This document shows, one piece after another, positions 355 through 63,968 of a DNA stretch of 64,000 nt (the first letter of the stretch is position 1; each line of letters begins with the position of its first letter). The stretch is from Fasciola hepatica (taxonomy: Eukaryota > Platyhelminthes > Trematoda > Plagiorchiida > Fasciolidae), in assembly GCA_948099385.1 (NCBI GenBank), contig CANUEZ040000203.1, positions 1,550,001-1,614,000 on the forward strand, read 5' to 3'. Both the position numbers and the translations under genes were made by a program. Under the pieces are notes generated by a model. It was given only the letters and a program-made list of their open reading frames with translations. It was not told the DNA's origin and did not search any database.

Positions 355-3300
355 TTGAAAGCTCAACTGAGCATTGAAATCCATGGAAGCACTGTACAGC
401 TGTTTCATCCTCTAAGGGACTCGACTCATCAGCAGTGCACATCGACCGAGCCCCCACGAGCACTCCAACAACCGGTGAACCATTGTGAATCGAACAACTT
501 AACAAAACAAGGCTATCCGGGATGGCTCTCAACGCTTTGTTCAACATCTACACTACATGATATAGCACCCTCCCCAAACTCGCTTTAAATTTGAATGGTA
601 AGAACCAGCTTCGCGCACACCGATCGACTCCTATGATGGATGACTTCTCTGTAGGGGCCTAAGTACAACCAACGCATTCCCAAATGAACAACCTACACAG
701 CTTCCTTACTATGCATGCAATTGTTCAGTAGTACGAGATTAGATCAGATTAGATTAGATTTGTATAATATGATTGATCATGCAGCTTGAACGCTCAACTG
801 AGCATTGAAATCCATGGAAGCACTGTACAGCTGTTTCATCCTCTAAGGGACTCAACTCATCAGCAGTGCACATCGACCGAGCCCCCACGGGCACTCCAAC
901 AACCGGTGAACCATTGTGAATCGAACAACTTTACAACACAAGGCTATCTGGGATGGCTCTCAACGCTTTGTTCAACATCTACACTACATGATATAGCACC
1001 CTTCCCAAACTCGCTTCAAATTTGAATGGTAAGAACCAGCTTCGCGCACACCGATCGACTCCTATGATGGATGACTTCTCTGTAGGGGCCTGAGTACAAC
1101 CAACGCATTCCCAAATGAACAACCTACACAGCTTCCTTACTATGCATGCAATTGATTAGTAGTACGAGATTAGATCAGATTAGATTAGATTTGTATAATA
1201 TGATTGATCATGCAGCTTGAACGCTCAACTGAGCATTGAAATCCATGGAAGCACTGTACAGCTGTTTCATCCTCTAAGGGACTCGACTCATCAGCATTGC
1301 ACATCGACCGAGCCCCCACGAGCACTCCAACAACCGGTGAACCATTGTGAATCGAACAACTTAACAACACAAGGCTATCCGGGATGGCTATCAACGCTTT
1401 GTTCAACATCTACACTACATCATATAGCACCGTTCCCAAACTCGCTTCAAATTTGAATGATAAGAACCAGCTTCGCGCACACCGATCGACTCCTATGATG
1501 GATGACTTCTCTGTAGTGGCCTAAGTACAACCAACGCATTCCCAAATGAACAACCTACACAGCTTCCTTACTATGCATGCAATTGATTAGTAGTACGAGA
1601 TTAGATCAGATTAGATTAGATTTGTATAATATGATTGATCATGCAGCTTGAACGCTCAACTGAGCGTTGAAATCCATCGAAGCACTGTACAGCGTTTTCA
1701 TCATTGTACGGACTCGACTCATCAGCAGTGCACATCGACCGAGCCCCCACGGGCACTCCAACAACTGGTGAACCATTGTGAATCGAACAACTTAACAAGA
1801 CAAGGCTATCCGGGATGGCTCTCAACGCTTTGTTCAACATCTACACTACATGATATAGCACCCTTCCCAAACTCGCTTTAAATTTGAATGGTAAGAACCA
1901 GCTTCGCGCACACCGATCGACTCCTATGATGGATGACTTCTCTGTAGGGGCCTAAGTACAACCAACGCATTCCCAAATGAACAACCTACACAGCTTCGTT
2001 ACTATGCATGCAATTGATTAGTAGTACGAGATTAGATCAGATTAGATTAGATTTGTATAATATGATTGATCATGCAGCTTGAACGCTCAACTGAGCATTG
2101 ACATCCATGGAAGCACTGTTCAGCTGTTTCATCCTCTAAGGCACTCGACTCATCAGCAGTGCACATCGACCGAGCCCCCACGGGCACTCCAACAACCGGT
2201 GAACCATTGTGAATCGAACAACTTTACAACACAAGGCTATCCGGGATGGCTCTCAACGCTTTGTTCAACATCTACACTACATGATATAGCACCGTTCCCA
2301 AACTCGCTTCAAATTTGAATGATGAGAACCAGCTTCGCGCACACCGATCGACTCCTATGATGGATGACTTCTCTGTAGGGGCCTAAGTACAACCAACGCA
2401 TTCCCAAATGAACAACCTACACAGCTTCCTTACTATGCATGCAATTGATTAGTAGTAGGAGATAAGTTCAGATTAGATTAGATTGGTATAATATGATTGA
2501 TCATGCAGCTTGAACGCTCAACTGAGCATTGAAATCCATGGAAGCACTGTACAGCTTTTTCATCATTGTACGTACTCGACTCATCAGCAGTGCACATCGA
2601 CCGAGCCCCCACGGGCACTCCAACAACTGGTGAACCATTGTGAATCGAACAACTTAACAAAACAAGGCTATCCGGGATGGCTCTCAACGCTTTGTTCAAC
2701 ATCTACACTACTTGATATAGCACCCTTCCCAAACTCGCTTCAAATTTGAATGGTAAGAACCAGCTTCGCGCACACCGATCGACTCCTATGATGGATGACT
2801 TCTCTGTAGGGGCCTAAGTACAACCAACGCATTCCCAAATGAACAACCTACACAGCTTCCTTACTATGCATGCAATTGATTAGTAGTATGAGATTAGATT
2901 AGATTAGATTAGATTTGTATAATATGATTGATCATGCAGCTTGAACGCTCAACTGAGCATTGACATCCATGGAAGCACTGTTCAGCTGTTTCATCCTCTA
3001 AGGCACTCGACTCATCAGCAGTGCACATCGACCGAGCAACCACGGGCACTCCAACAACCGGTGAACCATTGTGAATCGAACAACTTAACAACACAAGGCT
3101 ATCCGGGATGGCTCTCAACGTTTTGTTCAACATCTACACTACATGATATAGCACCCTTCCCAAACTCGCTTCCAATTTGAATGGTAACAACCAGCTTCGC
3201 GCACACCGATCGACTCCTATGATGGATGACTTCTCCGTAGGGGCCTGAGTACAACCAACGCATTCCCAAATGAACAACCTACACAGCTTGCTTACTATGC

Positions 3301-6300
3301 ATGCAATTGATAAGTAGTAGGAGATAAGTTCAGATTAGTTTAGATTTGTATGATATGATTGGTCATGCAGCTTGAACGCTCAACTGAGCATTGAAATCCA
3401 TGGAAGCACTGTCCAGCTGTTTCATCCTCTAAGGGACTCGACTCATCAGCAGTGCACATCGACCGAGCCCCCACGGGCACTCCAACAACCGGTGAACCAT
3501 TGTGAATCGAACAACTTAACAACACAAGGCTATCCGGGATGGCTCTCAACGTTTTGTTCAACATCTACACTACATGATATAGCACCCTTCCCAAACTCGC
3601 TTCAAATTTGAATGGTAGGAATCAGCTTCGCGCACACCGATCGACTCCTATGATGGATGACTTCTCTGTAGGGGCCTAAGTACAACCAACGCATTCACAA
3701 ATGAACAACCTACACAGCTTCCCTACTATGCATGCAATTGATTAGTAGTACGAGATTAGATTAGATTAGATTAGATTAGATTTGTATAATATGATTGATC
3801 ATGCAGCTTGAACGCTCAGCTGAGCATTGAAATCCATGGAAGCACTGTACAGCTGTTTCATCCTCTAAGGGACTCGACTCATCAGCAGTGCACATAGACC
3901 GAGCCCCCACGGGCACTCCAACAACCGGTGAACCATTGTGAATCGAACAACTTAACAACACAAGGCTATCCGGGATGGCTATCAACGCTTTGTTCAACAT
4001 CTACACTACATGATATAGCACCGTTCCCAAACTCGCTTCAAATTTGAATGGTAAGAATCAGCTTCGCGCACACCGATCGACTCCTATGATGGATGACTTC
4101 TCTGTAGGGGCCTAAGTACAACCAACGCATTCCCAAATGAACAACCTACACAGCTTCCTTACTATGCATGCAATTGATTAGTAGTACGCGATTAGATCAG
4201 ATTAGATTAGATTTGTATAATATGATTGATCATGCAGCTTGAACGCTCAACTGAGCATTGAAATCCATGGAAGCACTGTACAGCTGTTTCATCCTCTAAG
4301 GGACTCGACTCATCAGCAGTGCACATCGACCGAGCCCCCACGGGCATTCCAACAACCGGTGAACCATTGTGAATCGAACAACTTAACAAGACAAGGCTAT
4401 CCGGGATGACTCTCAACGCTTTGTTCAACATCTACACTACATGATATAGCACCCTTCCCAAACTCGCTTCAAATTTGAATGGTAAGAACCAGCTTCGCGC
4501 ACACCGATCGACTCCTATGATGGATGACTTCTCTGTAGGGGCCTAAGTACAACCAACGCATTCACAAATGAACAACCTACACAGCTTCCTTACTGTGCAT
4601 GCAATTGATTACTAGTACGAGATAAGATCAGATTAGATTAGATTAGATTTGTATAATATGATTGATCATGCAGCTTGAACGCTCAACTGAGCATTGAAAT
4701 CCATGGAAGCACTGTACAGCTGTTTCATCCTCTAAGGGACTCGACTCATCAGCAGTGCACATCGACCGAGCCCCCACGGGCACTCCAACAACCGGTGAAC
4801 CATTGTGAATCGAACAACTTAACAAAACAAGGCTATCCGGGATGGCTCTCAACGCTTTGTTCAACATCTACACTACTTGATATAGCACCCTTCCCAAACT
4901 CGCTTCAAATTTGAATGGTAGGAATCAGCTTCGCGCACACCGATCGACTCCTATGATGGATGACTTCTCTGTAGGGGCCTAAGTAAAACCAACGCATTCA
5001 CAAATGAACAACCTACACAGCTTCCTTACTATGCATGCAATTGATTAGTAGTACGAGATTAGATTAGATTAGATTAGATTAGATTTGTATAATATGATTG
5101 GTCATGCAGCTTGAACGCTCAACTGAGCATTGAAATCCATGGAAGCACTGTACAGCTGTTTCATCCTCTAAGTGACTCGACTCATCAGCAGTGCACATAG
5201 ACCGAGCCCCCACGGGCACTCCAACAACCGGTGAACCATTGTGAATCGAACAACTTAACAACACCGGGCTATCCGGGATGGCTATCAACGCTTTGTTCAA
5301 CATCTACACTACATGATATAGCACCCTTCCCAAACTCGCTTTAAATTTGAATGGTAACAACCAGCTTCGCGCAAACCGATCGACTCCTATGATGGATGGC
5401 TTCTCTGTAGGGGCCTAAGTACAACCAACGCATTCCCAAATGAACAACCTACACAGCTTCCTTACTATGCATGCAATTGATTAGTAGTACGCGATTAGAT
5501 CAGATTAGATTAGATTTGTATAATATGATTGATCATGCAGCTTGAACGCTCAACTGAGCATTGAAATCCATGGAAGCACTGTACAGCTGTTTCATCCTCT
5601 AAGGGACTCGACTCATCAGCAGTGCACATCGACCGAGCCCCCACGGGCATTCCAACAACCGGTGAACCATTGTGAATCGAACAACTTAACAAGACAAGGC
5701 TATCCGGGATGACTCTCAACGCTTTGTTCAACATCTACACTACATGATATAGCACCCTTCCCAAACTCGCTTCAAATTTGAATGGTAAGAACCAGCTTCG
5801 CGCACACCGATCGACTCCTATGATGGATGACTTCTCTGTAGGGGCCTAAGTACAACCAACGCATTCCCAAATGAACAACCTACACAGCTCCCCTACTATG
5901 CATGCAATTGATTAGTAGTACGAGATAAGTTCAGATTAGATTAGATTTGTATAATATGATTGATCATGCAGCTTGAACGCTCAACTGAGCATTGACATCC
6001 ATGGAAGCACTGTACAGCTGTTTCATCCTCTAAGGGACTCGACTCATCAGCAGTGCACATCGACCGAGCCCCCACGGGCACTCCAACAACCGGTGAACCA
6101 TTGTGAATCGAACAACTTAACAACACCGGGCTATCCGGGATGGCTATCAACGCTTTGTTCAACATCTACACTACATGATATAGCACCCTTCCCAAACTCG
6201 CTTCAAATTTGAATGGTAAGAACCAGCTTCGCGCACACCGATCGACTCGTATGATGGATGACTTCTCTGTAGGGGCCTAAGTACAACCAACGCATTCCCA

Positions 6301-9300
6301 AATGAACAACCTACACAGCTTCCCTACTATGCATGCAATTGATTAGTAGTACGAGATTAGTTCAGATTAGATTAGATTTGTATAATATGATTGATCATGC
6401 AGCTTGAACGCTCAACTGAGCATTGAAATCCATGGAAGCACTGTACAGCTGTTTCATCCTCTAAGGGACTCGACTCATCAGTAGTGCACATCGACCGAGC
6501 CCCCACGGGCACTCCAACAACCGGTGAACCATTGTGAATCGAACAACTTACCAAAACAAGGCTATCCGGGATGGCTCTCAACGCTTTGTTCAACATCTAC
6601 ACTACATGATATAGCACCCTTCCCAAACTCGCTTCAAATTTGAATGGTAAGAACCAGCTTCGCGCACACCGATCGACTCCTATGATGGATGACTTCTCTG
6701 TAGGGGCCTAAGTTCAACCAACGCATTCCCAAATGAACAACCTACACAGCTTCCTTACTATGCATGCAATTGATTAGTAGTACGATATAAATTCAGGTTA
6801 GATTAGATTTGTATAATATGATTGACCCTGCAGCTTGAACGCCCAACTGAGCATTGACATCCATGGAAGCACTGTACAGCTGTTTCATCCTCTAAGGCAC
6901 TCGACTCATCAGCAGTGCACATCGACCGAGCCCCCACGGGCACTCCAACAACCGGTGAACCATTGTGAATCGAACAACTTAACAAAACAAGGCTATCCGG
7001 GATGGCTCTCAACGCTTTGTTCAACAACTACACTACATCATATATAGCACCCTTCCCAAACTCGCTTCAAATTTGAATGGTAAGAACTAGCTTCGCGAAC
7101 ACCGATCCACTCCTATGATGGATGACTTCTCTGTAGGGGCCTGAGTTCAACCAACGCATTCACAAATGAACAACCTACACAGCTTCCTTACTATGCATGC
7201 AATTGATTAGTAGTACGAGATAAGTTCAGATTAGATTAGATTTGTATAATATGATTGATCATGCAGCGTGAACGCTCAACTGAGCATTGACATCCATGGA
7301 AGCACTGTACAGCTGTTTCATCCTCTAAGGGACTCGACTCATCAGCAGTGCACATCGACCGAGCCCACACGGGCACTCCAACAACCGGTGAACCATTGTG
7401 AATCGAACAACTTAACAACACAAGGCTATCCGGGATGGCTCTCAACGCTTTGTTCAACATCTACACTACATGATATAGCACCCTTCCCAAACTCGCTTCA
7501 AATTTGAATGGTAAGAACCAGCTTCGCGCACACCGATCGACTCCTATGATGGATGACTTCTCTGTAGGGGCCTAAGTACAACCAACGCATTCCCAAATGA
7601 ACAACCTACACAGCTTCCTTACTATGCATGCAATTGATTAGTAGTACGAGATTAGATTAGATTAGATAAGATTAGATTTGTATAATATGATTGATCATGC
7701 AGCTTGAACGCTCAACTGAGCATTGAAATCCATGGAAGCACTGTACAGATGTTTCATCCTCTAAGGGACTCGACTCATCAGCAGTGCACATCGACCGGCC
7801 CCCACGGGCACTCCAACAACCGGTGAACCATTGTGAATCGAACAACTCAACAACACAAGGCTATCCGGGATGGCTCTCAACGCTTTGTTCAACACCTACA
7901 CTACATGATATAGCACCGTTCCCAAACTCGCTTCAAATTTGAATGGTAGGAACCAGCTTCGCGCACACCGATCGACTCCTATGATGGATGACTTCTCTGT
8001 AGGGGCCTAAGTACAACCAACGCATTCCCAAATGAACAACCTACACAGCTTCCTTACTATGCATGCAATTGATTAGTAGTACGAGATTAGATCAGATTGG
8101 GTTAGATTTGTATAATATGATTGATCATGCAGCTTGAACGCTCAACTGAGCATTGAAATCCATGGAAGCACTGTACAGCTGTTTCATCCTCTAAGGGACT
8201 CGACTCATCAGCAGTGCACATCGACCGAGCCCCCACGGGCACTCCAACAACCGGTGAACCATTGCGAATCGAACAAACCAACAACACAAAGTTATCCGGG
8301 ATGGCTATCAACGCTTTGTTCAACATCTACACTACATCATATTACACCCTTCCCAAACTCGCTTCAAATTTGAATGGTAAGAACCAGCTTCGCGCACACC
8401 GATCGACTCGTATGATGGATGACTTCTCTGTAGGGGCCTAAGTACAACCAACGCATTCCCAAATGAACAACCTACACAGCTTCCTTACTATGCATGCAAT
8501 TGATTAGTAGTACGCGATTAGATCAGATTAGATTAGATTTGTATAATATGATTGATCATGCAGCTTGAACGCTCAACTGAGCATTGAAATCCATGGAAGC
8601 ACTGTACAGCTGTTTCATCCTCTAAGGGACTCGACTCATCAGCAGTGCACATCGACCGAGCCCCCACGGGCATTTCAACAACCGGTGAACCATTGTGAAT
8701 CGAACAACTTAACAAGACAAGGCTATCCGGGATGGCTATCAACGCTTTGTTCAACATCTACACTACATGATATAGCACCGTTCCCAAACTCGATTCAAAT
8801 TTGAATGGTAAGAATCAGCTTCGCGCACACCGATCGACTCCTACGATGGATGACTTCTCTGTAGGGGCCTAAGTACAACCAACGCATTCCCAAATGAACA
8901 ACCTACACAGCTTCCTTACTATGCATGCAATTGATTAGTAGTACGAGATTAGATTAGATTAGATTAGATTTGTATAATATGATTGATCATGCAGCTTGAA
9001 CGCTCAGCTGAGCATTGAAATCCATGGAAGCACTGTACAGCTGTTTCATCCTCTAAGGGACTCGACTCATCAGCAGTGCACATCGACCGAGCCCCCACGG
9101 GCACTCCAACAACCGGTGAACCATTGTGAATCGAACAACTCAACAACACAAGGCTATCCGGGATTGCTATCTAGGCTTTGTTCAACATCTACGCTACATG
9201 ATATTGTACCCTTCCCAAACTCGCTTTAAATTTGAATGGTAAGAACCAGCTTCGCGCACACCGATCCACTCCTATGATGGATGACTTCTCTGTAGGGGCC

Positions 9301-10283
9301 TAAGTTCAACCAACGCATTCACAAATGAACAACCTACACAGCTTCCTTACTATGCATGCAATTGATTAGTAGTACGAGATGAGTTCAGATTAGATTTGTA
9401 TAATATGATTGATCATGCAGCTTGAACGCTCAACTGAGCATTGAAATCCATGGAAGCACTGTACAGATGTTTCATCCTCTAAGGGATTCGACTCATCAGC
9501 ATTGCACATCGACCGAGCCCCCACGGGCACTCCAACAACCGGTGAACCATTGTGAATCGAACAACTCAACAACACAAGGCTATCCGGGATGGCTATCAAC
9601 GCTTTGTTCAACACCTACACTACATGATATAGCACCGTTCCCAAACTCGCTTCAAATTTGAATGGTTAGAATCAGCTTCGCGCACACCGATCGACTCCTA
9701 CGATGGATGACTTCTCTGTAGGGGCCTCAGTACAACCAACGCATTCCCAAATGAACAACCTACACAGCTTCCTTACTATGCATGCAATTGATTAGTAGTA
9801 CGAGATAAGTTCAGATTAGATTAGATTTGTATAATATGATTGATCATGCAGCTTGAACGCTCAACTGAGCATTGAAATCCATGGAAGCACTGTACAGCTG
9901 TTTCATCCTCTAAGGGACTCGACTCATCAGCAGTGCACATCGACCGAGCCCACACGGGCATTTCAACAACCGGTGAACCATTGTGAATCGAACAAATCAA
10001 CAACACAAGGCTATCCGGGATGGCTATCAACGCTTTGTTCAACATCTACACTACATGATATAGCACCCTTCCCAAACTCGCTTCAAATTTGAATGGTAAG
10101 AATCAGCTTCGCGCACACCGATCGACTCCTACGATGGATGACTTCTCTGTAGGGGCCTAAGTACAACCAACGCATTCCCAAATGAACAACCTACACAGCT
10201 TCCTTACTATGCATGCAATTGATTAGTAGTACGAGATTAGATCAGATTAGATTAGATTTGTATAATATGATTGATCATGCAGC
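355..10283. repeat. Satellite monomers 1-23
   Basis: Monomer starts: 355, 786, 1217, 1648, 2079, 2510, 2941, 3372, 3808, 4239, 4675, 5111, 5542, 5973, 6404, 6835, 7268, 7704, 8134, 8565, 8996, 9422, 9853. Most are of the GAGCCCCCACGG type. Ribozyme-damaging changes occur at 2079 and 2941 (CTGTTCAG for CTGTACAG, an 862 bp dimer spacing) and at 3372 (CTGTCCAG). Monomers 1648 and 2510 carry the variant loop II CATTGTACG. Monomer 7704 has lost bases in CGACCGGCCCC. The pentamer block before 9422 has lost one GATTA unit, giving the shortest spacing seen (426 bp). Confidence 0.96.
3372..5972. repeat. Tandem trimer duplication, offset 1303 bp
   Basis: Monomers 3372, 3808 and 4239 are copied as 4675, 5111 and 5542, each at an offset of 1303 bp. 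Shared rare marks are GGTAGGAATCAGC at the end of the first monomer, CACATAGACCGAG in the second, and GTACGCGATTAG before plus GGGATGACTCTC inside the third. The copies differ at scattered sites, for example CTGTCCAG only in 3372 and GCAAACCGATCG only in 5111, so this is an older duplication than that at 41.8-44.4 kb. Confidence 0.85.
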
Positions 10284-13200
10284 TTGAACGCTCAACTGAG
10301 CATTGAAATCCATGGAAGCACTGTACAGCTGTTTCATCCCCTAAGGGACTCGACTCATCAGCAGTGCACATCGACCGAGCAACCACGGGCACTCCAACAA
10401 CCGGTGAACCATTGTGAATCGAACAACTCAACAACACAAGGCTATCCGGGATGGCTATCAACGCTTTGTTCAACACCTACACTACATGATATAGCACTGT
10501 TCCCAAACTCGCTTCAAATTTGAATGGTAAGAACCAGCTTCGCGCACACCGATCGACTCCTATGATGGATGACTTCTCTGTAGGGGCCTAAGTACAACCA
10601 ACGCATTCCCAAATGAACAACCTACACAGCTTCCTTACTATGCATGCAATTTATTAGTAGTACGAGATTAGATCAGATTAGATTAGATTTGTATAATATG
10701 ATTGATCATGCAGCTTGAACGCTCAACTGAGCATTGAAATCCATGGAAGCACTGTACAGCTGTTTCATCCTCTAAGGGACTCGACTCATCAGCAGTGCAC
10801 ATCGACCGAGCAACCACGGGCACTCCAACAACCGGTGAACCATTGTGAATCGAACAAATCAACAACACAAGGCTATCCGGGATGGCTATCAACGCTTTGT
10901 TCAACATCTACACTACATGATATAGCACCCTTCCCAAACTCGCTTCAAATTTGAATGGTAAGAACCAGCTTCGCGCACACCGATCGACTCCTATGATGGA
11001 TGACTTCTCTGTAGGGGCCTAAGTACAACCAACGCATTCCCAAATGAACAACCTACACAGCTTCCTTACTATGCATGCAATTGATTAGTAGTACGCGATT
11101 AGATCAGATTAGATTAGATTTGTATAATATGATTGATCATGCAGCTTGAACGCTCAACTGAGCATTGAAATCCATGGAAGCACTGTACAGCTGTGTCATC
11201 CTCTAAGGGACTCTACTTATCAGCAGTGCACATCGACCGAGCAACCACGGGCACTCCAACAACCGGTGAACCATTGTGAATCGAACAACTTTACAACACA
11301 AGACTATCCGGGATGGCTCTCAACGCTTTGTTCAACATCTACACTACATCATATATAGCACCCTTCCCAAACTCGCTTCAAATTTGAATGGTAAGAACCA
11401 GCTTCGCGCACACCGATCGACTCGTATGATGGATGACTTCGCTGTAGGGGCTGAGTACAAACAACGCATTCCCAAATGAAAAACCTACACAGCTTCCTTA
11501 CTATGCATGCAATTTATTAGTAGTACGAGATAAGTTCAGATTAGATTAGATTTGTATAATATGATTGATCATGCAGCTTGAACGCTCAACTGAGCATTGA
11601 AATCCATGGAAGCACTGTACAGCTGTTTCATCCTCTAAGGGACTCGACTCATCAGCAGTGCACATCGACCGAGCCCCCACGGGCACTCCAACAACCGGTG
11701 AACCATTGTGAATCGAACAACCTAACAACACAAGGCTATCCGGGATGGCTCTCAACGCTTTGTTCAACATCTACACTACATGATATAGCACCCTTCCCAA
11801 ACTCGCTTCAAATTTGAATGGTAAGAACCAGCCTCGCGCACACTGATCGACTCCTATGATGGATGAATTCTCTGTAGGGGTCTGAGTACAACCAACGCAT
11901 TCCCAAATGAACAACCTACACAGCTTCCTTACTATGCATGCAATTGATTAGTAGTACGAGATTAGATCAGATTAGATTAGATTTGTATAATATGATTGAT
12001 CATGCAGCTTGAACGCTCAACTGAGCATTGAAATCCATGGAAGCACTGTACAGCTGTTTCATCCTCTAAGGGACTCGACTCATCAGCAGTGCACATCGAC
12101 CGAGCAACCACGGGCACTCCAACAACCGGTGAACCATTGCGAATCGAACAAATCAACAACACAAGGCTATCCGGGATGGCTCTCAACGCTTTGTTCAACA
12201 TCTACACTACATGATATAGCACCCTTCCCAAACTCGCTTCAAATTTGAATGGTAAGAACCAGCTTCGCGCACACCGATCGACTCGTATGATGGATGACTT
12301 CTCTGTAGGGGCCTAAGTACAACCAACGCATTCCCAAATGAACAACCTACACAGCTTCCTTACTATGCATGCAATTGATTAGTAGTACGAGATTAGATTA
12401 GATTAGATTAGAATAGATTTGTATAATATGATTGATCATGCAGCTTGAACGCTCAACTGAGCATTGAAATCCATGGAAGCACTGTACAGCTGTTTCATCC
12501 TCTAAGGGACTCGACTCATCAGCAGTGCACATCGACCGAGCAACCACGGGCACTCCAACAACCGGTGAACCATTGTGAATCGAACAACTTAACAACACAA
12601 GACTATCCGGGATGGCTATCAACGCTTTGTTCAACATCTACACTACATCATATATAGCACCCTTCCCAAACTCGCTTCAAATTTGAATGGTAAGAACCAG
12701 CTTCGCGCAGACCGATCGACTCCTATGATGGATGACTTCTCTGTAGGGGCCTCAGTACAACCAACGCATTCCCAAATGAACAACCTACACAGCTTCCTTA
12801 CTATGCATGCAATTGATTAGTAGTACGAGATTAGATCAGATTAGATTAGATTTGTATAATATGATTGATCATGCAGCTTGAACGCTCAACTGAGCATTGA
12901 AATCCATGGAAGCACTGTACAGCTGTTTCATCCTCTAAGGGACTCGACTCATCAGCAGTGCACATCGACCGAGCAACCACGGGCACTCCAACAACCGGTG
13001 AACCATTGCGAATCGAACAAATCAACAACACAAGGCTATCCGGGATGGCTATCAACGCTTTGTTCAACATCTACACTACATGATATAGCACCCTTCCCAA
13101 ACTCGCTTCAAATTTGAATGGTAAGAACCAGCTTCGCGCAGACCGATCGACTCCTATGATGGATGACTTCTCTGTAGGGGCCTAAGTACAACCAACGCAT

Positions 13201-27568: not shown

Positions 27569-27638
27569 AATCCATGGAAGCACTGTACAGCTGTTTCATC
27601 CTCTAAGGGACTCGACTCATCAGCAGTGCACATCGACC
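27569..27638 (-). ncRNA. Hammerhead ribozyme, prototype copy
   Basis: This consensus copy shows the parts in minus-strand order. Stem I strand GCACTG is at 27629-27624; core C3-A9 CTGATGA at 27623-27617; stem-loop II at 27616-27598; core G12-A14 GAA at 27597-27595; stem III ACAGCTGT at 27594-27587; H17 is A at 27586; predicted cleavage lies between 27586 and 27585; stem I strand CAGTGC is at 27585-27580. The six inner stem I pairs are perfect. An outer helix GGTCGAT with ATGGATT (one G-G mismatch) can close after a GU/UUCC internal loop, the position where natural type I hammerheads carry the loop that contacts loop II. The cleavage triplet is GUA, which hammerheads accept. Stem III within one molecule is only A-U and C-G closed by an AGCU loop. 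Stem II is either GUC with GAU around a 13-nt loop, or GUCC with GGAU after a 5-nt insertion. Cleavage has not been tested. Confidence 0.88.
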
Positions 27639-27676
27639 GAGCCCCCACGGGCACTCCAACAACCGGTGAACCATTG

Positions 27677-27687: not shown

Positions 27688-27735
27688 ACTTAACAACACA
27701 AGGCTATCCGGGATGGCTCTCAACGCTTTGTTCAA

Positions 27736-51340: not shown

Positions 51341-53934
51341 TTGAACGCTCAACTGAGCATTGAAATCCATGGAAGCACTGTACAGCTGTTTCATCCACTA
51401 AGGGACTCGACTCATCTGCAGTGCACATCGACCGAGCCCCCACGGACACTTCAACAACCGGTGAACCATTGTGAATCGAACAACTTAACAACACAAGGCT
51501 ATCCGGGATGGCTATCAACGCTTTGTTCAACATCTACACTTCATGATATAGCACCCTTCCCAAACTCGCTTCAAATTTGAATGGTAAGAACCAGCTTCGC
51601 GCACACCGATCGACTCCTATGATGGATGACTTCTCTGTAGGGGCCTAAGTACAACCAACGCATTCCCAAATGAATAACCTACACAGCTTCCTTACTATGC
51701 ATGCAAATGATTAGTAGTACGAGATTAGATTAGATTAGATTAGATTAGATTTGTATAATATGATTGATCATGCAGCTTGAACGCTCAACTGAGCATTGAA
51801 ATCCATGGAAGCACTGTACAGCTGTTTCATCCTCTAAGGGACTCGACTCATCAGCAGTGCACATCGACCGAGCCCCCACGGGCACTCCAACAACCGGTGA
51901 ACCATTGTGAATCGAACAACTTAACAACACAAGGCTATCCGGGATGGCTCTCAACGCTTTGTTCAACATCTACACTACATGATATAGCACCCTTCCCAAA
52001 CTCGCTTCAAATTTGAATGGTAAGAACCAGCTTCGCGCACACCGATCGACTCCTATGATGGATGACTTCTCTGTAGGGGCCTAAGTACAACCAACGCATT
52101 CCCAAATGAACAACCTACACAGCTTCCTTACTATGCATGCAATTGATTAGTAGTACGAGATTAGATTAGATTAGATTGGATTTGTATAATATGATTGGTC
52201 ATGCAGCTTGAACGCTCAACTGAGCATTGAAATCCATGGAAGCACTGTACAGCTGTTTCATCCTCTAAGGGACTCGACTCATCAGTAGTGCACATCGACC
52301 GAGCCCCCACGGGCACTCCAACAACCGGTGAACCATTGTGAATCGAACAACTTAACAACACAAGGCTATCCGGGATGGCTCTCAACGCTTTGTTCAACAT
52401 CTTCACTACATGATATAGCACCCTTCCCAAACTCGCTTCAAATTTGAATGGTAAGAACCAGCTTCGCGCACACCGATCCACTCCTATGATGGATGACTTC
52501 TCTGTAGGGGCCTAAGTACAACCAACGCATTCCCAAATGAACAACCTACACAGCTTCCTTACTATGCATGCAATTGATTAGTAGTACGAGATTAGATCAG
52601 ATTAGATTTGTATAATATGATTGATCATGCAGCTTGAACGCTCAACTGAGCATTGAAATCCATGGAAGCACTGTACAGCTGTTTCATCCTCTAAGGGACT
52701 CGACTCATCTGCAGTGCACATCGACCGAGCCCCCACGGGCACTCCAACAACCGGTGAACCATTGTGAATCGAACAACTTAACAACACATGGCTATCCGGG
52801 ATGGCTATCAACGCTTTGTTCAACATCTCCACTACATCATATATAGCAAAATTCCCAAACTCGCTTCAAATTTGAATGGTAAGAACCAGCTTCGCGCACA
52901 CCGATCCACTCCTATGATGGATGACTTCTCTGTAGGGGCCTGAGTACAACCAACGCATTCCCAAATGAACAACCTACACAGCTTCCTTACTATGCATGCA
53001 ATTGATTAGTAGTACGAGATTAGATTAGATTAGATTAGATTTGTATAATATGATTGATCATGCAGCTTGAACGCTCAACTGAGCATTGAAATCCATGGAA
53101 GCACTGTACAGCTGTTTCATCCTCTAAGGGACTCGACTCATCTGCAGTGCACATCGACCGAGCCCCCACGGGCACTCCAACAACCGGTGAACCATTGTGA
53201 ATCGAACAACTTAACAAGACAAGGCTATCCGGGATGGCTATCAACGCTTTGTTCAACATCTACACTACATGATATAGCACCGTTCCCAAACTCGCTTTAA
53301 ATTTGAATGGTAACAACCAGCTTCGCGCACACCGATCGACTCCTATGATGGATGACTTCTCTGTAGGGGCCTAAGTACAACCAACGCATTCACAAATGAA
53401 CAACCTACACAGCTTCCTTACTATGCATGCAATTGATTAGTAGTACGAGATTAGATTAGATTAGATTGGATTTGTATGATATGATTGGTCATGCAGCTTG
53501 AACGCTCAACTGAGCATTGAAATCCATGGAAGCACTGTACAGCTGTTTTATCCTCTAGGGGACTTACTCATCAGTAGTGCACATCGACCGAGCCCCCACG
53601 GGCACTCCAACAACCGGTGAACCATTGTGAATCGAACAACTTAACAACACAAGGCTATCCGGGATGGCTCTCAACGCTTTGTTCAACATCTACACTACAT
53701 CCTATATAGCAAAATTCCCAAACTCGCTTTAAATTTGAATGGTAAGAACCAGCTTCGCGCACACCGATCGACTCCTATGATGGATGACTTCTCTGTAAGG
53801 GCCTAAGTACAACCAACGCATTCCCAAATGAACAACCTACACAGCTTCCTTACTATGCATGCAATTGATTAGTAGTACGAGATAAGATTAGATTAGATTA
53901 GATTAGATTTGTATAATATGATTGATCATGCAGC
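51341..53934 (-). ncRNA. Cluster of inactivated hammerhead copies
   Basis: Monomers 51341, 52634 and 53067 read CATCTGCAGTGC on the plus strand, so the ribozyme core becomes CAGATGA (U4 to A). Monomer 53498 reads GTTTTATCC, changing G12 to A, and has also lost a base in the stem II region. Monomers 50911 and 52208 read CATCAGTAGTGC, which unpairs position 2.1 from 1.1. Only 51777 in this stretch keeps a fully consensus ribozyme. These are copies of the ncRNA expected not to cleave. Confidence 0.8.
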
Positions 53935-54124
53935 TTGAACGCTCAACTGAGCATTGAAATCCATGGAAGCACTGTACAGCTGTTTCATCCTCTAAGGGAC
54001 TCGACTCATCAGCAGTGCACATCGACCGAGCAACCACGGGCACTCCAACAACCGGTGAACCATTGTGAATCGAACAAATCAACAACACAAGGCTATCCGG
54101 GATGGCTCTCAACGCTTTGTTCAA

Positions 54125-54135
54125 CATCTGCGCTA
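54125..54135 (-). promoter_or_regulatory. Canonical-looking A box variant in monomer 53935
   Basis: The minus strand reads TAGCGCAGATG, fitting the stricter A box TRGCNNAGNNG, where the array consensus has only TAGTGTAGATG. It lies in a divergent patch (CTGCGCTAAACC followed by AAAATTCCCC) shared with the monomer two places on. It could preserve an older promoter or a different subfamily. Confidence 0.4.
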
Positions 54136-54988
54136 AACCAAATATATAGAAAATTCCCCAAATCGCTTAAATTTGAATGGTAAGAACCAGCTTCGCGCAC
54201 ACCGATCGACTCCTATGATGGATGACTTCTCTGTAGGGGCCTAAGTACAACCAACGCATTCCCAAATGAACAACCTACACAGCTTCCTTACTATGCATGC
54301 AATTGATTAGTAGTACGAGATAAATTCAGATTAGATTAGATTTGTATAATATGATTGATCATGCAGCTTGAACGCTCAACTGAGCATTGAAATCCATGGA
54401 AGCACTGTACAGCTGTTTCATCCTCTAAGGGACTCGACTCATCAGCAGTGCACATCGACCGAGCCCCCACGGGCACTCCAACAACCGGTGAACCATTGTG
54501 AATCGAACAACTTAACAACACAAGGCTATCCGGGATGGCTCTCAACGCTTTGTTCAACATCTACACTACATGATATAGCACCCTTCCCAAACTCGTTTCA
54601 AATTTGAATGGTAAGAATCAGCTTCGCGCACACCGATCGACTCCTATGATGGATGACTTCTCTGTAGGGGCCTCAGTACAACCAACGCATTCCCAAATGA
54701 ACAACCTACACAGCTTCCTTACTATGCATGCAATTGATTAGTAGTACGAGATTAGATTAGATTAGATTAGATTTGTATAATATGATTGATCATGCAGCTT
54801 GAACGCTCAACTGAGCATTGAAATCCATGGAAGCACTGTACAGCTGTTTCATCCTCTAAGGGACTCGACTCATCAGCAGTGCACATCGACCGAGCAACCA
54901 CGGGCACTCCAACAACCGGTGAACCATTGTGAATCGAACAACTTAACAAGACAAGGCTATCCGGGATGGCGCTCAACGCTTTGTTCAA

Positions 54989-54999
54989 CATCTGCGCTA
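54989..54999 (-). promoter_or_regulatory. Canonical-looking A box variant in monomer 54799
   Basis: Same TAGCGCAGATG variant as in monomer 53935, 864 bp away, again with CTGCGCTAAACC and a following AAAATTCCCC. The intervening monomer 54368 has the ordinary sequence, so the variant moved as part of a dimer or by conversion. Confidence 0.4.
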
Positions 55000-55667
55000 A
55001 ACCATATATAGCAAAATTCCCCAACTCGCTTCAAATTTGAATGGTAAGTACCAGCTTCGCGCACACCGATCGACTCCTATGATGGATGACTTCTCTGTAG
55101 GGGCCTGAGTACAACCAACGCATTCCCAAATGAACAACCTACACAGCTTCCTTACTATGCATGCAATTGATTAGTAGTACGAGATTAGATTAGATTAGAT
55201 TAGATTAGATTTGTATAATATGATTGATCATGCAGCTTGAACGCTCAACTGAGCATTGAAATCCATGGAAGCACTGTACAGCTGTTTCATCCTCTAAGGG
55301 ACTCGACTCATCAGCAGTGCACATCGACCGAGCCCCCACGAGCACTCCAACAACCGGTGAACCATTGTGAATCGAACAACTTAACAACACAAGGCTATCC
55401 GGGATGGCTCTCAACGCTTTGTTCAACATCTACACTACATGATATAGCACCCTTCCCAAACTCGCTTCAAATTTGAATGGTAAGAACCAGCTTCGCGCAC
55501 ACCGATCGACTCCTATGATGGATGACTTCTCTGTAGGGGCCTAAGTACAACCAACGCATTCCCAAATGAACAACCTACACAGCTTCCTTACTATGCATGC
55601 AATTGATTAGTAGTACGAGATAAGTTCAGATTAGATTAGGTTTGTATAATATGATTGATCATGCAGC

Positions 55668-57394
55668 TTGAACGCTCAACTGAGCACTGAAATCCATGGA
55701 AGCACTGTACAGCTGTTTCATCCTCTAAGGGACTCGACTCATCAGCAGTGCACATCGACCGAGCAACCACGAGCACTCCAACAACCGTGAACCATTGTGA
55801 ATCGAACAACTTAACAACACAAGGCTATCCGGGATGGCTATCAACGCTTTGTTCAACATCTACACTACATCATATATAGCACCCTTCCCAAACTCGCTTC
55901 AAATGTGAATGGTCAGAACCAGCTTCACGCACACCGATCGACTCCTATGATGGATGACTTCTCTGTAGGGGCCTAAGTACAACCAACGCATTCCCAAATG
56001 AACAACCTACACAGCTTCCTTACTATGCATGCAATTGATTAGTATACGAGATAAGTTCAGATTAGATTAGATTTGTATAATATGATTGATCATGCAGCTT
56101 GAACGCTCAACTGAGCACTGAAATCCATGGAAGCACTGTACAGCTGTTTCATCCTCTAAGGGACTCGACTCATCAGCAGTGCACATCGACCGAGCAACCA
56201 CGGGCACTCCAACAACCGGTGAACCATTGTGAATCGAACATCTTAACAAGACAAGGCTATCCGGGATGGCTCTCAACGCTTTGTTCAACATCTACACTAC
56301 ATCATATATAGCACCCTTCCCAAACTCGCTTCAAATGTGAATGGTCAGAACCAGCTTCACGCACACCGATCGACTCCTATGATGGATGACTTCTCTGTAG
56401 GGGCCTAAGTACAACCAACGCATTCCCAAATGAACAACCTACACAGCTTCCTTACTATGCATGCAATTGATTAGTAGTACGAGATAAGTTCAGATTAGAT
56501 TAGGTTTGTATAATATGATTGATCATGCAGCTTGAACGCTCAACTGAGCACTGAAATCCATGGAAGCACTGTACAGCTGTTTCATCCTCTAAGGGACTCG
56601 ACTCATCAGCAGTGCACATCGACCGAGCAACCACGAGCACTCCAACAACCGTGAACCATTGTGAATCGAACAACTTAACAACACAAGGCTATCCGGGATG
56701 GCTATCAACGCTTTGTTCAACATCTACACTACATCATATATAGCACCCTTCCCAAACTCGCTTCAAATGTGAATGGTCAGAACCAGCTTCACGCACACCG
56801 ATCGACTCCTATGATGGATGACTTCTCTGTAGGGGCCTAAGTACAACCAACGCATTCCCAAATGAACAACCTACACAGCTTCCTTACTATGCATGCAATT
56901 GATTAGTATACGAGATAAGTTCAGATTAGATTAGGTTTGTATAATATGATTGATCATGCAGCTTGAACGCTCAACTGAGCATTGAAATCCATGGAAGCAC
57001 TGTACAGCTGTTTCATCCTCTAAGGGACTCGACTCATCAGCAGTGCACATCGACCGAGCAACCACGGGCACTCCAACAACCGGTGAACCATTGTGAATCG
57101 AACATCTTAACAAGACAAGGCTATCCGGGATGGCTCTCAACGCTTTGTTCAACATCTACACTACATCATATATAGCACCCTTCCCAAACTCGCTTCAAAT
57201 GTGAATGGTCAGAACCAGCTTCACGCACACCGATCGACTCCTATGATGGATGACTTCTCTGTAGGGGCCTCAGTACAACCAACGCATTCCCAAATGAACA
57301 ACCTACACAGCTTCCTTACTATGCATGCAATTGATTAGTATACGAGATAAGTTCAGATTAGATTAGGTTTGTATAATATGATTGATCATGCAGC
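55668..57394. repeat. Dimer repeat, offset 864 bp
   Basis: Monomers 55668 and 56099 are repeated as 56532 and 56963. First members share GAGCAACCACGAGC with CCGTGAACC; second members share GAACATCTTAACAAGAC and the preceding AGTATACG. All four share CAAATGTGAATGGTCAG and CTTCACGC. Differences seen: 56099 has GAGCACTG and GATTAGATTTG where 56963 has GAGCATTG and GATTAGGTTTG. The ribozyme is intact in all four. Confidence 0.88.
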
Positions 57395-60300
57395 TTGAAC
57401 GCTCAACTGAGCACTGAAATCCATGGAAGCACTGTACAGCTGTTTCATCCTCTAAGGGACTCGACTCATCAGCAGTGCACATCGACCGAGCAACCACGAG
57501 CACTCCAACAACCGGTGAACCATTGTGAATCGAACAACTTAACAACACAAGGCTATCCGGGATGGCTATCAACGCTTTGTTCAACATCTACACTACATCA
57601 TATATAGAACCCTTCCCAAACTCGCTTCAAATTTGAATGGTAAGAACCAGCTTCGCGCACACCGATCGACTCCTATGATGGATGACTTCTCTGTAGGGGC
57701 CTAAGTACAACCAACGCATTCCCAAATGAACAACCTACACAGCTTCCTTACTATGCATGCAATTGATTAGTAGTACGAGATTAGATTAGATTAGATTAGA
57801 TTTGTATAATATGATTGATCATGCAGCTTGAACGCTCAACTGAGCACTGAAATCCATGGAAGCACTGTACAGCTGTTTCATCTTCTAAGGGACTCGACTC
57901 ATCAGCAGTGCACATCGACCGAGCCCCCACGGGCACTCCAACAACCGGTGAACCATTGTGAATCGAACAACTTAACAACACAAGGCTATCCGATATGGCT
58001 ATCAACGCTTTGTTCAACATCTACAATACATCATATATAGCACCCTTCCCAAACTCGCTTCAAATTTGAATGGTAACAACCAGCTTCGCGCACACCGATC
58101 CACTCCTATGATGGATGACTTCTCTGTAGGGGCCTAAGTACAACCAACGCATTCCCAAATGAACAACCTACACAGCTTCCTTACTATGCATGCAATTGAT
58201 TAGTAGTACGAGATTAGATTAGATTAGATTAGATTTGTATAATATGATTGATCATGCAGCTTGAACGCTCAACTGAGCATTGAAATCCATGGAAGCACTG
58301 TACAGCTGTTTCATCCTCTAAGGGACTCGACTCATCAGCAGTGCACATCGACCGAGCAACCACGGGCACTCCAACAACCGGTGAACCATTGTGAATCGAA
58401 CAACTTAACAACACAAGGCTATCCGGGATGGCTATCAACGCTTTGTTCAACATCTACACTTCATGATATAGCACCCTTCCCAAACTCGCTTCAAATTTGA
58501 ATGGTAAGAACCAGCTTCGCGCACACCGATCGACTCCTATGATGGATGACTTCTCTGTAGGGGCCTCAGTACAACCAACGCATTCACAAATGAACAACCT
58601 ACACAGCTTCCTTACTATGCATGCAATTGATTAGTAGTACGAGATTAGATTAGATTAGATTAGATTTGTATAATATGATTGATCATGCAGCTTGAACGCT
58701 CAACTGAGCATTGAAATCCATGGAAGCACTGTACAGCTGTTTCATCCTCTAAGGGACTCGACTCATCAGCAGTGCACATCGACCGAGCAACCACGGGCAC
58801 TCCAACAACCGTGAACCATTGTGAATCGAACAACTTAACAACACAAGGCTATCCGGGATGGCTATCAACGCTTTGTTCAACATCTACACTACATCATATA
58901 TAGCACCCTTCCCAAACTCGCTTCAAATGTGAATGGTCAGAACCAGCTTCACGCACACCGATCGACTCCTATGATGGATGACTTCTCTGTAGGGGCCAGG
59001 TACAACCAACGCATTCCCAAATGAACAACCTACACAGCTTCCTTACTATGCATGCAATTGATTAGTATACGAGATAAGTTCAGATTAGATTAGGTTTGTA
59101 TAATATGATTGATCATGCAGCTTGAACGCTCAACTGAGCACTGAAATCCATGGAAGCACTGTACAGCTGTTTCATCCTCTAAGGGACTCGACTCATCAGC
59201 AGTGCACATCGACCGAGCAACCACGAGCACTCCAACAACCGGTGAACCATTGTGAATCGAACAACTTAACAACACAAGGCTATCCGGGATGGCTATCAAC
59301 GCTTTGTTCAACATCTACACTACATCATATATAGCACCCTTCCCAAACTCGCTTCAAATTTGAATGGTAAGAACCAGCTTCGCGCACACCGATCGACTCC
59401 TATGATGGATGACTTCTCTGTAGGGGCCTAAGTACAACCAACGCATTCCCAAATGAACAACCTACACAGCTTCCTTACTATGCATGCAATTGATTAGTAG
59501 TACGAGATTAGATTAGATTAGATTAGATTTGTATAATATGATTGATCATGCAGCTTGAACGCTCAACTGAGCACTGAAATCCATGGAAGCACTGTACAGC
59601 TGTTTCATCTTCTAAGGGACTCGACTCATCAGCAGTGCACATCGACCGAGCCCCCACGGGCACTCCAACAACCGGTGAACCATTGTGAATCGAACAACTT
59701 AACAACACAAGGCTATCCGGGATGGCTATCAACGCTTTGTTCAACATCTACACTACATGAAATAGCACCGTTCCCAAACTCGCTTCAAATTTGAATGGTA
59801 AGAACCAGCTTCGCGCACACCGATCCACTCCTATGATGGATGACTTCTCTGTAGGGGCCTAAGTACAACCAACGCATTCCCAAATGAACAACCTACACAG
59901 CTTCCTTACTATGCATGCAATTGATTAGTAGTACGAGATTAGATTAGATTAGATTAGATTTGTATAATATGATTGATCATGCAGCTTGAACGCTCAACTG
60001 AGCATTGAAATCCATGGAAGCACTGTACAGCTGTTTCATCCTCTAAGGGACTCGACTCATCAGCAGTGCACATCGACCGAGCAACCACGGGCACTCCAAC
60101 AACCGGTGAACCATTGTGAATCGAACAACTTAACAACACAAGGCTATCCGGGATGGCTATCAACGCTTTGTTCAACATCTACACTTCATGATATAGCACC
60201 CTTCCCAAACTCGCTTCAAATTTGAATGGTAAGAACCAGCTTCGCGCACACCGATCCACTCCTATGATGGATGACTTCTCTGTAGGGGCCTCAGTACAAC

Positions 60301-60847
60301 CAACGCATTCACAAATGAACAACCTACACAGCTTCCTTACTATGCATGCAATTGATTAGTAGTACGAGATTAGATTAGATTAGATTAGATTTGTATAATA
60401 TGATTGATCATGCAGCTTGAACGCTCAACTGAGCATTGAAATCCATGGAAGCACTGTACAGCTGTTTCATCCTCTAAGGGACTCGACTCATCAGCAGTGC
60501 ACATCGACCGAGCAACCACGGGCACTCCAACAACCGGTGAACCATTGTGAATCGAACAACTTAACAAGACAAGGCTATCCGGGATGGCTCTCAACGCTTT
60601 GTTCAACATCTACACTACATGATATAGCACCCTTCCCAAACTGGATTTAAATTTGAATGGTAAGAACCAGCTTCGCGCACACCGATCCACTCCTATGATG
60701 GATGACTTCTCTGTAGGGGCCTAAGTACAACCAACGCATTCCCAAATGAACAACCTACACAGCTTCCTTACTATGCATGCAATTGATTAGTAGTACGAGA
60801 TTAGATTAGATTAGATTAGATTTGTATAATATGATTGATCATGCAGC
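57395..60847. repeat. Tetramer-spaced repeat, offset about 1727 bp
   Basis: Monomers 57395, 57828 and 58261 correspond to 59122, 59555 and 59986. Marks are ATTAGGTTTG before and CCACGAGCAC in the first members, CATCTTCTAAGG in the second, and CACTTCATGATATAGC with GGGCCTCAG in the third. The fourth members (58692 and 60417) differ: 58692 has CCGTGAACC and CTTCACGC, 60417 has ACTGGATTT. The 3' half of 59555 (CATGAAATAGCACCG) resembles 39214 rather than 57828, another mosaic junction. Confidence 0.78.
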
Positions 60848-63800
60848 TTGAACGCTCAACTGAGCACTGAAATCCATGGAAGCACTGTACAGCTGTTTCA
60901 TCCTCTAAGGGACTCGACTCATCAGCACTGCACATCGACCGAGCCCCCACGGACACTCCAACAACCGGTGAACCATTGTGAATCGAACAACTTAACAACA
61001 CAAGGCTATCCGGGATGGCTCTCAACGCTTTGTTCAACATCTACACTACATGATATAGCACCCTTCCCAAACTCGCTTCAAATTTGAATGGTAAGAACCA
61101 GCTTCGCGCACACCGATCGACTCCTATGATGGATGACTTCTCTGTAGGGGCCTCAGTACAACCAACGCATTCCCAAATGAACAACCTACACAGCTTCCTT
61201 ACTATGCATGCAATTGATTAGTAGTACGAGATTAGATTAGATTAGATTAGATTTGTATAATATGATTGATCATGCAGCTTGAACGCTCAACTGAGCATTG
61301 AAATCCATGGAAGCACTGTACAGCTGTTTCATCCTCTAAGGGACTCGACTCATCAGCAGTGCACATCGACCGAGCAACCACGGGCACTCCAACAACCGGT
61401 GAACCATTGTGAATCGAACAACTTAACAAGACAAGGCTATCCGGGATGGCTCTCAACGCTTTGTTCAACATCTACACTACATGATATAGCACCCTTCCCA
61501 AACTGGCTTTAAATTTGAATGGTAAGAACCAGCTTCGCGCACACCGATCCACTCCTATGATGGATGACTTCTCTGTAGGGGCCTAAGTACAACCAACGCA
61601 TTCCCAAATGAACAACCTACACAGCTTCCTTACTATGCATGCAATTGATTAGTAGTACGAGATTAGATTAGATCAGATTAGATTAGATTTGTATAATATG
61701 ATTGATCATGCAGCTTGAACGCTCAACTGAGCATTGAAATCCATGGAAGCACTGTACAGATGTTTCGTCCTCTAAGGGACTCGACTCATCAGCAGTGCAC
61801 ATCGACCGAGCCCCCACGGACACTCCAACAACCGGTGAACCATTGTGAATCGAACAAGTTAACAACACAAGGCTATCCGGGATGGCTATCAACGCTTTGT
61901 TCAACATCTACACTTCATGATATAGCACCCTTCCCAAACTCGCTTCAAATTTGAATGGTAAGAACCAGCTTCGCGCACACCGATCGACTCCTATGATGGA
62001 TGACTCCTCTGTAGGGGCCTGAGTACAACCAACGCATTCCCAAATGAACAACCTACACAGCTTCCTTACTATGCATGCAATTGATTAGTAGTACGAGATT
62101 AGATTAGATTAGATTAGATTTGTATAATATGATTGATCATGCAGCTTGAACGCTCAACTGAGCACTGAAATCCATGGAAGCACTGTACAGCTGTTTCATC
62201 TTCTAAGGGACTCGACTCATCAGCAGTGCACATCGATCGAGCCCCCACGGGCACTCCAACAACCGGTGAACCATTGTGAATCAAACAACTTAACAACACA
62301 AGGCTATCCGGGATGGCTATCAACGCTTTGTTCAACATCTACAATACATCATATATAGCACCCTTCCCAAACTCGCTTCAAATTTGAATGGTAAGAAACA
62401 GCTTCGCGCACACCGATCGACTCCTATGATGGATGACTTCTCTGTAGGGGCCTAAGTACAACCAACGCAATCACAAATGAACAACCTACACAGCTTCCTT
62501 ACTATGCATGCAATTGATTAGTAGTACGAGATTAGATTAGATTAGATTAGATTTGTATAATATGATTGATCATGCAGCTTGAACGCTCAACTGAGCATTG
62601 AAATCCATGGAAGCACTGTACAGCTGTTTCATCCTCTAAGGGACTCGACTCATCAGCAGTGCACATCGACCGAGCCCCCACGGACACTCAACCAACCGGT
62701 GAACCATTGTGAATCGAACAACTTAACAACACAGGGCTATCCGGGATGGCTATCAACGCTTTGTTCAACATCTACAATACATCATATATAGCACCCTTCC
62801 CAAACTCGCTTTAAATTTGAATGGTAAGAACCAGCTTTGCGCACACCGATCCACTCCTATGATGGATGACTTCTCTGTAGGGGCCTAAGTACAACCAACG
62901 CATTCCCAAATGAACAACCTACACAGCTTCCTTACTATGCATGCAATTGATTAGTAGTACGAGATTAGATTAGATTAGATTAGATTTGTATAATATGATT
63001 GATCATGCAGCTTGAACGCTCAACTGAGCACTGAAATCCATGGAAGCACTGTACAGCTGTTTCATCTTCTAAGGGACTCGACTCATCAGCAGTGCACATC
63101 GACCGAGCCCCCACGGGCACTCCAACAACCGGTGAACCATTGTGAATCGAACAACTTAACAACACAAGGCTATCCGATATGGCTATCAACGCTTTGTTCA
63201 ACATCTACAATACATCATATATAGCACCCTTCCCAAACTCGCTTCAAATTTGAATGGTAACAACCAGCTTCGCGCACACCGATCCATTCCTATGATGGAT
63301 GACTTCTCTGTAGGGGCCTAAGTACAACCAACGCAATCACAAATGAACAACCTACACAGCTTCCTTACTATGCATGCAATTGATTAGTAGTACGAGATTA
63401 GATTAGATTAGATTAGATTTGTATAATATGATTGATCATGCAGCTTGAACGCTCAACTGAGCATTGAAATCCATGGAAGCACTGTACAGCTGTTTCATCC
63501 TCTAAGGGACTCGACTCATCAGCAGTGCACATCGACCGAGCCCCCACGGGCACTCCAACAACCGGTGAACCATTGTGAATCGAACAACCTAACAACACAA
63601 GGCTATCCGGGATGGCTCTCAACGCTTTGTTCAACATCTACACTACATGATATAGCACCCTTCCCAAACTCGCTTCAAATTTGAATGGTAAGAACCAGCT
63701 TCGCGCACACCGATCGACTCCTATGATGGATGACTTCTCTGTAGGGGCCTAAGTACAACCAACGCATTCCCAAATGAACAACCTACACAGCTTCCTTACT

Positions 63801-63898
63801 ATGCATGCAATTGATTAGTAGTACGAGATTAGATCAGATTAGATTAGATTTGTATAATATGATTGATCATGCAGCTTGAATGCTCAACTGAGCACTGA

Positions 63899-63968
63899 AA
63901 TCCATGGAAGCACTGTACAGCTGTTTCATCTTCTAAGGGACTCGACTCATCAGCAGTGCACATCGACC
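63899..63968 (-). ncRNA. Last complete hammerhead copy
   Basis: The final, edge-truncated monomer still holds the whole fold: plus-strand GCACTGTACAGCTGTTTC at 63910-63927 and TCATCAGCAGTGC at 63947-63959, the complements of the stem I, stem III, GAA and CTGATGA elements. Its stem II region reads CATCTTCTAAGG, so only GUC with GAU can pair. Landmark bases read TTGAATGC, a CpG to TpG type change. Confidence 0.85.

Follow-up and report, generated by a model that had tools for sequence, protein, structure and literature searches.

The window analysed here is a stretch of 64,000 nucleotides from Fasciola hepatica (contig CANUEZ040000203.1, positions 1,550,001 to 1,614,000; C203 in the numbering used below, where L denotes loci and C contigs). 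It is filled by a tandem satellite bearing the signature of a type I hammerhead ribozyme on its minus strand, which raises the question of where this satellite came from and whether its ribozyme can be expected to work. The original prediction, made from the letters of the window, claimed a self-cleaving ribozyme in every monomer. Comparison with the rest of the genome (1.5 Gb in 656 contigs) points to another answer, to which a probability of about 0.7 is given: the satellite would derive from a retrozyme, its ribozyme would have decayed, its relatives would have been moved by Penelope-like elements (PLEs), and a single tandem would have been multiplied at the DNA level. Taken by itself, the window is an unremarkable satellite whose hammerhead is damaged, and it is the relatives that hold the interest.

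A single array with a period of 431 bp (148.1 copies, 96% matches in Tandem Repeats Finder) occupies positions 1..64000, without assigned strand. Segmentation gave 148 units, 146 of them distinct, with a mean pairwise identity of 0.959 and no clear higher-order period up to 24 units. This array, subfamily A, runs on leftward for at least 10 kb (L040, fully covered), and the subfamily is also present on other contigs. On the minus strand the elements follow in the order GCACTG, CTGATGA, a 19-nt stretch, GAAA, CAGCTG, TA and CAGTGC. In one unit (389..438; the signature recurs about every 431 bp) the 5′ strand of helix I, GCACTG, lies at 433..438, the core strand CTGATGA at 426..432, the helix II and loop region at 407..425, and the core GAA with the palindromic helix III, ACAGCTGT, at 396..406; the A of the GUA cleavage triplet (395) and the 3′ strand of helix I, CAGTGC, follow at 389..395, with cleavage predicted at 395/394. 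The exact motif with TA before the cleavage site gave 111 matches on the minus strand of the window and 0 on the plus strand. Both CUGAUGA and GAAAC were kept in 133 of the 148 segmented units, and the motif is accordingly found in most monomers, not in all of them as had been claimed.

When a 96-base piece of the unit was compared with 4227 Rfam families, Hammerhead_1 (RF00163) was matched with 24.5 bits and an E value of 2.3e-4. This score lies below the gathering score of 34, which counts against the motif; no match was obtained at gathering scores over the whole window, and no hammerhead was found with lax settings over 9 kb, where the speed filters lose the motif. To judge from the ordered elements, the Rfam score and homologous copies above the cutoff elsewhere in the genome, the type I hammerhead ancestry and the GUA triplet were correctly predicted. 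That ancestry is not in doubt; the quality of the ribozyme is.

A search of the genome with Hammerhead_1 gave at least 61 matches, at least 37 of them above the cutoff of 34. These counts are lower bounds, as 74 of 288,504 first-look candidates were scored, and the lack of the satellite contigs in the resulting list accordingly carries no meaning. Among the 30 loci fetched, 28 were relatives of the window unit, with a helix II lacking the duplication described below, most commonly GUCC-CAACAA-GGAU; 26 of them are distinct (L025 coincides with L026, and L017 with L031), and their flanks are mostly unique. The native helix II has a probability of 0.99 in the L026 form and of 0.08 in the window unit. 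A search with a body piece from L030 yielded 30 loci, 16 of them in head-to-tail arrays; the relatives occur both as short inserts and as arrays. The array units measure about 400–402 bp and were found on six contigs (C13, C143, C60, C159, C192 and C186); with a hammerhead in tandem units of this length, the relatives fall within the tandem repeats of about 150–450 bp by which metazoan retrozymes are recognised. Most array ribozymes read UUCC-CAACAA-GGAU; like the axolotl HHR_Amex2, they have helix II starting from a U.U. Intact CTGANGA and GAAA were present in 121/123 array copies and 17/25 dispersed copies, these counts being drawn from overlapping loci with some copies counted more than once.

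The other two of the 30 loci, L010 (1501-1545) and L033 (1501-1545), were excluded before counting; their type I hammerheads belong to a separate family, have GUC as the triplet and score 39.5 and 35.6 bits, over the cutoff. Beside the retrozyme copy of L018, two Hammerhead_HH9-like sequences from yet another hammerhead family lie 300 bp apart (1073-1144 and 1373-1445; 38.7 and 29.7 bits, cutoff 52).

In the relatives the ribozyme is directly preceded by a tRNA-like sequence, which in L037 ends 10 nt before helix I. The Rfam tRNA cutoff of 29 was exceeded in one of seven relatives in a first test (L037, 30.8) and in three of four in a second (L074 up to 36.6, L084 33.1, L066 29.7); L030 and L071 remained under it. 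With ARAGORN, L029 (Val cac) was the one locus with a tRNA call among the 28 relatives first fetched, and calls were made in 5 of 8 of the second set (L065, L074, L084 and L090, Val cac; L089, Met cat), so that tRNA-Val(cac) was called in five loci. With A and B boxes in a tRNA-like head, the relatives also have the head of tRNA-derived short interspersed nuclear elements (SINEs). A remnant of this head with a degenerate B box was located in the window by alignment to the relatives (449..522, minus strand). No tRNA was called in window positions 1-3000, nor by ARAGORN in either of two satellite pieces.

The architecture of the inserts was measured on 40 distinct inserts against one real unit, L026. 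Inserts that ran off their locus, were shorter than about 120 bp or were flank-duplicates (including L016 and L029) were left out; L086, with two arms and a 161-bp gap, was treated as two single inserts for architecture and as one for target duplications. Two opposite arms, head to head, made up 24 of the 40, and one arm the remaining 16. The outer 3′ ends (n = 64) were concentrated in two zones 25 nt apart, of which one (unit positions 376-388) holds 27 and the other (401 or more) holds 26 (53/64 in all), and the inner or 5′ ends were scattered from unit position 1 to 365. The longer arms, defined as those reaching unit position 400 or more, carry a tail of about 25 nt, which was present on exactly one arm in 21 of the 24 inverted inserts, on both arms in 0 and on neither in 3 (L009, L021 and L085). 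Exact target duplications of at least 8 bp (range 8–14 bp) flanked 18 of 39 inserts, with an expectation of 0.8 from exchanged flanks, in a bounded scan with control that replaced an earlier scan lacking boundary limits; one of the 18 (L079) consists of simple repeat. Metazoan retrozymes are marked by target duplications of more than 4 bp. No reading frame was seen in the inserts.

Several arms cover more than one lap of the unit: L025 (1.16), L037 (1.30), L068 (1.25), L069 (1.12), L070 (1.11) and L086 (1.22), both arms of L080 (1.37 and 1.09) and L085 (1.60 and 1.28), and, by smaller amounts, L083 and L087. The template of such arms would therefore have been circular or concatemeric, and they are the trace to be expected of reverse transcription from a ribozyme-made circle, or from a concatemer. 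L026, L037 and L011 each have arms that are sisters in the tree, and L017 and L027 do not; one template for both arms is likely for some inserts and no more than possible for others.

These features recall the insertions of PLEs. Published PLE inserts have an adjoining inverted repeat, mostly head-to-head, an optional 31-bp tail on one inverted repeat and short duplications (PMC3846280). The tail is explained by work on a purified Penelope-type enzyme, which cut and extended both strands and initiated at two neighbouring internal positions (PMC11167929). The present inserts agree with PLE insertions in their head-to-head arms, the optional tail on one arm, the short target duplications and the two adjacent start sites. 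They differ in a tail of about 25 nt, as compared with 30–40 bp in PLEs, and in the one-arm rule, whereas the purified enzyme showed no strand difference in start site. GIY-YIG domains numbered 90 among the genome matches listed, many in open frames of up to 869 aa, and many stood in tandem about 2752 bp apart or in inverted pairs, an arrangement of GIY-YIG genes that is PLE-like. The relatives without helix II disruption have probably been spread by Penelope-type retrotransposons, which have been named strong or likely candidates for moving animal retrozymes (PMC7229834, PMC7761336). A literature search joining hammerheads or retrozymes with Penelope, pLTR, and inverted or twin priming returned no report of inverted, tailed retrozyme inserts among the listings and passages covered, the subscription literature being mostly outside its coverage.

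One of the tandem Penelope-like elements, with a period of about 2752 bp, was read on C72 (4551200-4552100 and 4554100-4554900; L094 and L095). Its intergenic part has CCGAAACGTC, and no CTGANGA strand lay within the pieces read. As to the target duplications, those of L020, L022, L069, L080 and L086 end in ATT, the commonest cut motif of the purified PLE enzyme (PMC11167929).

The tRNA head above the Rfam cutoff, the target duplications of 8–14 bp and the 5′ truncation would also suit ordinary tRNA-derived SINEs moved by a long interspersed nuclear element (LINE), the inverted copies arising from twin priming, and the schistosome Sm-alpha has been described as SINE-like with a hammerhead (PMC2770079). 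Among the rival explanations this one survives best. Twin priming on one linear RNA should, however, leave neither a pair of arms that span identical parts of the unit nor arms longer than one lap, and two fixed starts with the tail confined to a single arm would not be expected from it either; on this insert architecture the origin is considered unlikely, if a serious competitor.

Movement by PLEs, which is preferred here, would take the following course. Driven by the tRNA-like promoter, RNA polymerase III would transcribe the tandem units of the mobile relatives; the transcript would be cleaved into single units by a hammerhead acting as a dimer, and these would be circularised by a host ligase. 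With both nicked strands of the target as primers, a Penelope-type reverse transcriptase/GIY-YIG endonuclease would start at two neighbouring sites of the unit and copy the circle or a concatemer, sometimes for more than one lap. The products would be inserts in head-to-head order that have a single tail and are flanked by a target duplication of 8–14 bp. One tandem copy would then have been amplified as DNA to megabases, with decay of its promoter and ribozyme. Whether PLEs move animal retrozymes in general, by two-site priming on circular or concatemeric ribozyme RNA that yields one-tailed multi-lap inserts, one tandem having lost its ribozyme to become a multi-megabase satellite, is a wider proposal that is put forward at even odds.

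The proposed decay of the ribozyme would show in helix II, for which the window unit has the strand GUCGAGUCC ... GGAU. Paired in the proper register, this helix is limited to G.U, U-A and C-G (3 bp), with the low probability cited above, and a GUCC/GGAU pairing of 4 bp, five bases out of register, reaches 0.77–0.90; the lowest-energy fold of a 72-nt piece has the same slipped pairing. The helix is disrupted because of a 5-nt tandem duplication, GAGTC GAGTC (418..427, minus strand), which has no counterpart in the 28 dispersed relatives; by this calculation the 19-nt stem-loop of the original prediction is not a good helix II. Since helix III of the monomer consists of 2 bp and a palindromic AGCU tetraloop, activity of the window unit would need a dimer; a dimer is also needed by the hammerheads of newts and axolotl (PMC7229834). 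The outer helix of stem I, likewise part of the original prediction, was present in that fold of the 72-nt piece and absent from the lowest-energy fold of a longer, 89-nt piece. The folding models thus predict a weak or inactive ribozyme, which would likely cut poorly or not at all.

No signal of selection on the ribozyme was obtained from the array. Changes at core and helix sites were somewhat below average, but not significantly below those under a mask shifted round the unit (P 0.21–0.44 by tree steps, 0.12–0.36 by frequency), so that a footprint of function was not found in the array. In helix I, changes occur at column 25 in 11 of the 148 units and at column 27 in 9, and the partner columns never change, leaving the variation uncompensated.

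A second kind of damage was seen outside the window, in 20 one-kb satellite samples taken, not at random, on six contigs already known to hold hits. Satellite covered 0.90 or more of 18 samples and none of L053 and L057; the 18 comprised 3 of form A, 2 of an intermediate A′ and 13 of form B, a unit of 423 bp about 76–78% identical to form A. In 31 form B ribozymes the core G5 was replaced by C in 31/31, and G12 by C in 30 and by A in 1. Both G5 and G12 are essential in hammerheads. The ribozyme is damaged in different ways within the satellite, and a working ribozyme in every monomer is left without support by the broken helix II, the core without significant conservation and the core bases lost in form B.

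The strength of the slipped pairing nevertheless allows a reading in which the satellite ribozyme works as it is, in a second register, CUGA-[UGAGUC]-GA, with an enlarged position 7, the 4-bp helix II GUCC/GGAU and a dimer formed through the palindromic helix III. The 111 exact motif copies are in line with such a ribozyme, as is the energy gained when two window-unit hammerheads pair (−32.1 vs. −23.0 kcal/mol). To our knowledge there is no hammerhead with position 7 enlarged in this way, and a functional ribozyme would be hard to reconcile with core and helix sites that show no significant conservation, the uncompensated changes in helix I and the loss of G5 and G12 from form B, which make this reading improbable.

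The descent of the satellite from a decayed retrozyme is consistent with the tree, in which the satellite rows (52) and the insert rows (30) formed separate clades with a support of 100/98 each. The array likely descends from a tRNA-headed hammerhead retrozyme, that is, a small non-autonomous retroelement, with its own ribozyme predicted to be weak or inactive.

The inverted arms could also suggest fold-back or miniature inverted-repeat (MITE-like) DNA transposons that acquired a hammerhead. In L022 and L023, which are not independent, a common inner junction is combined with different target duplications, so that the inverted form seems to have moved whole. This origin is disfavoured, as 16 of 40 inserts are one-armed, arm lengths, inner junctions and duplication lengths vary, and arms exceed one lap; it is regarded as very improbable. 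Chance resemblance, for which the window score below the Rfam cutoff might be adduced, has a vanishingly small probability and was rejected, since homologous copies over the cutoff exist elsewhere in the genome and, of 40,000 dinucleotide shuffles of the unit, 3 contained a motif of this kind whose helix I is perfect over 6 bp (72 with 4 bp and 199 with 3 bp), in agreement with the original estimate that chance was very unlikely.

Several observations weigh against descent from a PLE-moved retrozyme. The tree is midpoint-rooted and its bootstrap not fully settled. Duplications of 8 bp were lacking in 21 of 39 inserts, and, of 22 inserts in which the arms could be compared, only 6 had arms that matched each other best, the arms being no closer than average in 8. 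The commonest relative form, with U.U at the base of helix II, scores 27–30 bits, under the cutoff of 34; in single-copy folds the minimum of the canonical L026 form is not the native one, the gap being 5.3 kcal/mol; and the proper helix II is favoured (probability above 0.5) in 14 of 133 window units. RNA of the whole satellite unit is 66% paired, with z about 0 against 100 shuffles, and so is not unusually structured and falls below the more than 70% self-pairing expected of metazoan retrozymes (PMC4918200). As to the enzyme, the start sites in the PLE study were the same on both strands, unlike the one-tail rule of the inserts, and mutating the hammerhead left insertion at the wild-type level (PMC11167929), which does not fit a need for cleavage and makes an uncut concatemer the more likely template than a circle. 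The one PLE family read (3′ end and junction, 1.7 kb) has no sequence in common with the retrozyme inserts, and the link to PLEs therefore rests on insert architecture.

With known systems the present lineage shares a good deal. Schistosome Sm-alpha, SINE-like and derived from tRNA-Gln, is a precedent for the tRNA head (PMC2770079, PMC4918200); Sm-alpha and Sj-alpha are likewise short tRNA-derived elements with a type I hammerhead (PMC2770079, PMC4918200, PMC8490949), of tRNA-Gln as against the tRNA-Val-like head found here. As was also predicted, the satellite resembles those of newts, schistosomes and cave crickets in bearing a hammerhead, with one per unit as in the satellite DNA of Dolichopoda pDo500 and of newt, where the mode is dimeric (PMC2837043, PMC6155905). 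In pDo500, however, conservation is higher in the hammerhead than elsewhere in the unit, and 146/198 fold as active, neither of which is true of the window satellite (PMC2837043). From the metazoan retrozymes without long terminal repeats (non-LTR) described in PMC7229834 the present lineage differs in its tRNA-like head, its mostly inverted, one-tailed inserts and its large satellite with a disrupted ribozyme.

One lineage thus occurs within one genome in three states, as mobile inserts, as short arrays and as a very large satellite; the sampled arrays and inserts have mostly retained the ribozyme, which in the satellite is damaged. The case warns against taking such a signature, when met in satellite DNA, for an active ribozyme. 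The PLE-type footprint of the inserts makes the proposed role of PLEs in moving animal retrozymes directly testable.

Other features of the unit were minor. An AGATT-type microsatellite of variable length lies at 304..330 (no strand assigned; period-5 rows of Tandem Repeats Finder) and is placed by alignment at the position of the retrozyme tail, AAATCTAATCT. The stability of the unit folded as a circle gave no signal, the hammerhead helix I having a probability of 0.003 in that fold. A literature search for a 431 bp satellite DNA matched only an unrelated phage paper, and the hammerhead pattern gave 0 matches in viral contigs. A near-perfect long hairpin at L012:1840-1961 (MIR7127, 53.2 bits, cutoff 100) is possibly a fold-back element. 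Changes between C and G made up 23 of the 48 differences between the window consensus unit and an array unit (L066:956-1364), a marked bias; the corresponding figures are 2 of 33 for a pair of insert-type units and 181 of the 1311 variant letters inside the window.

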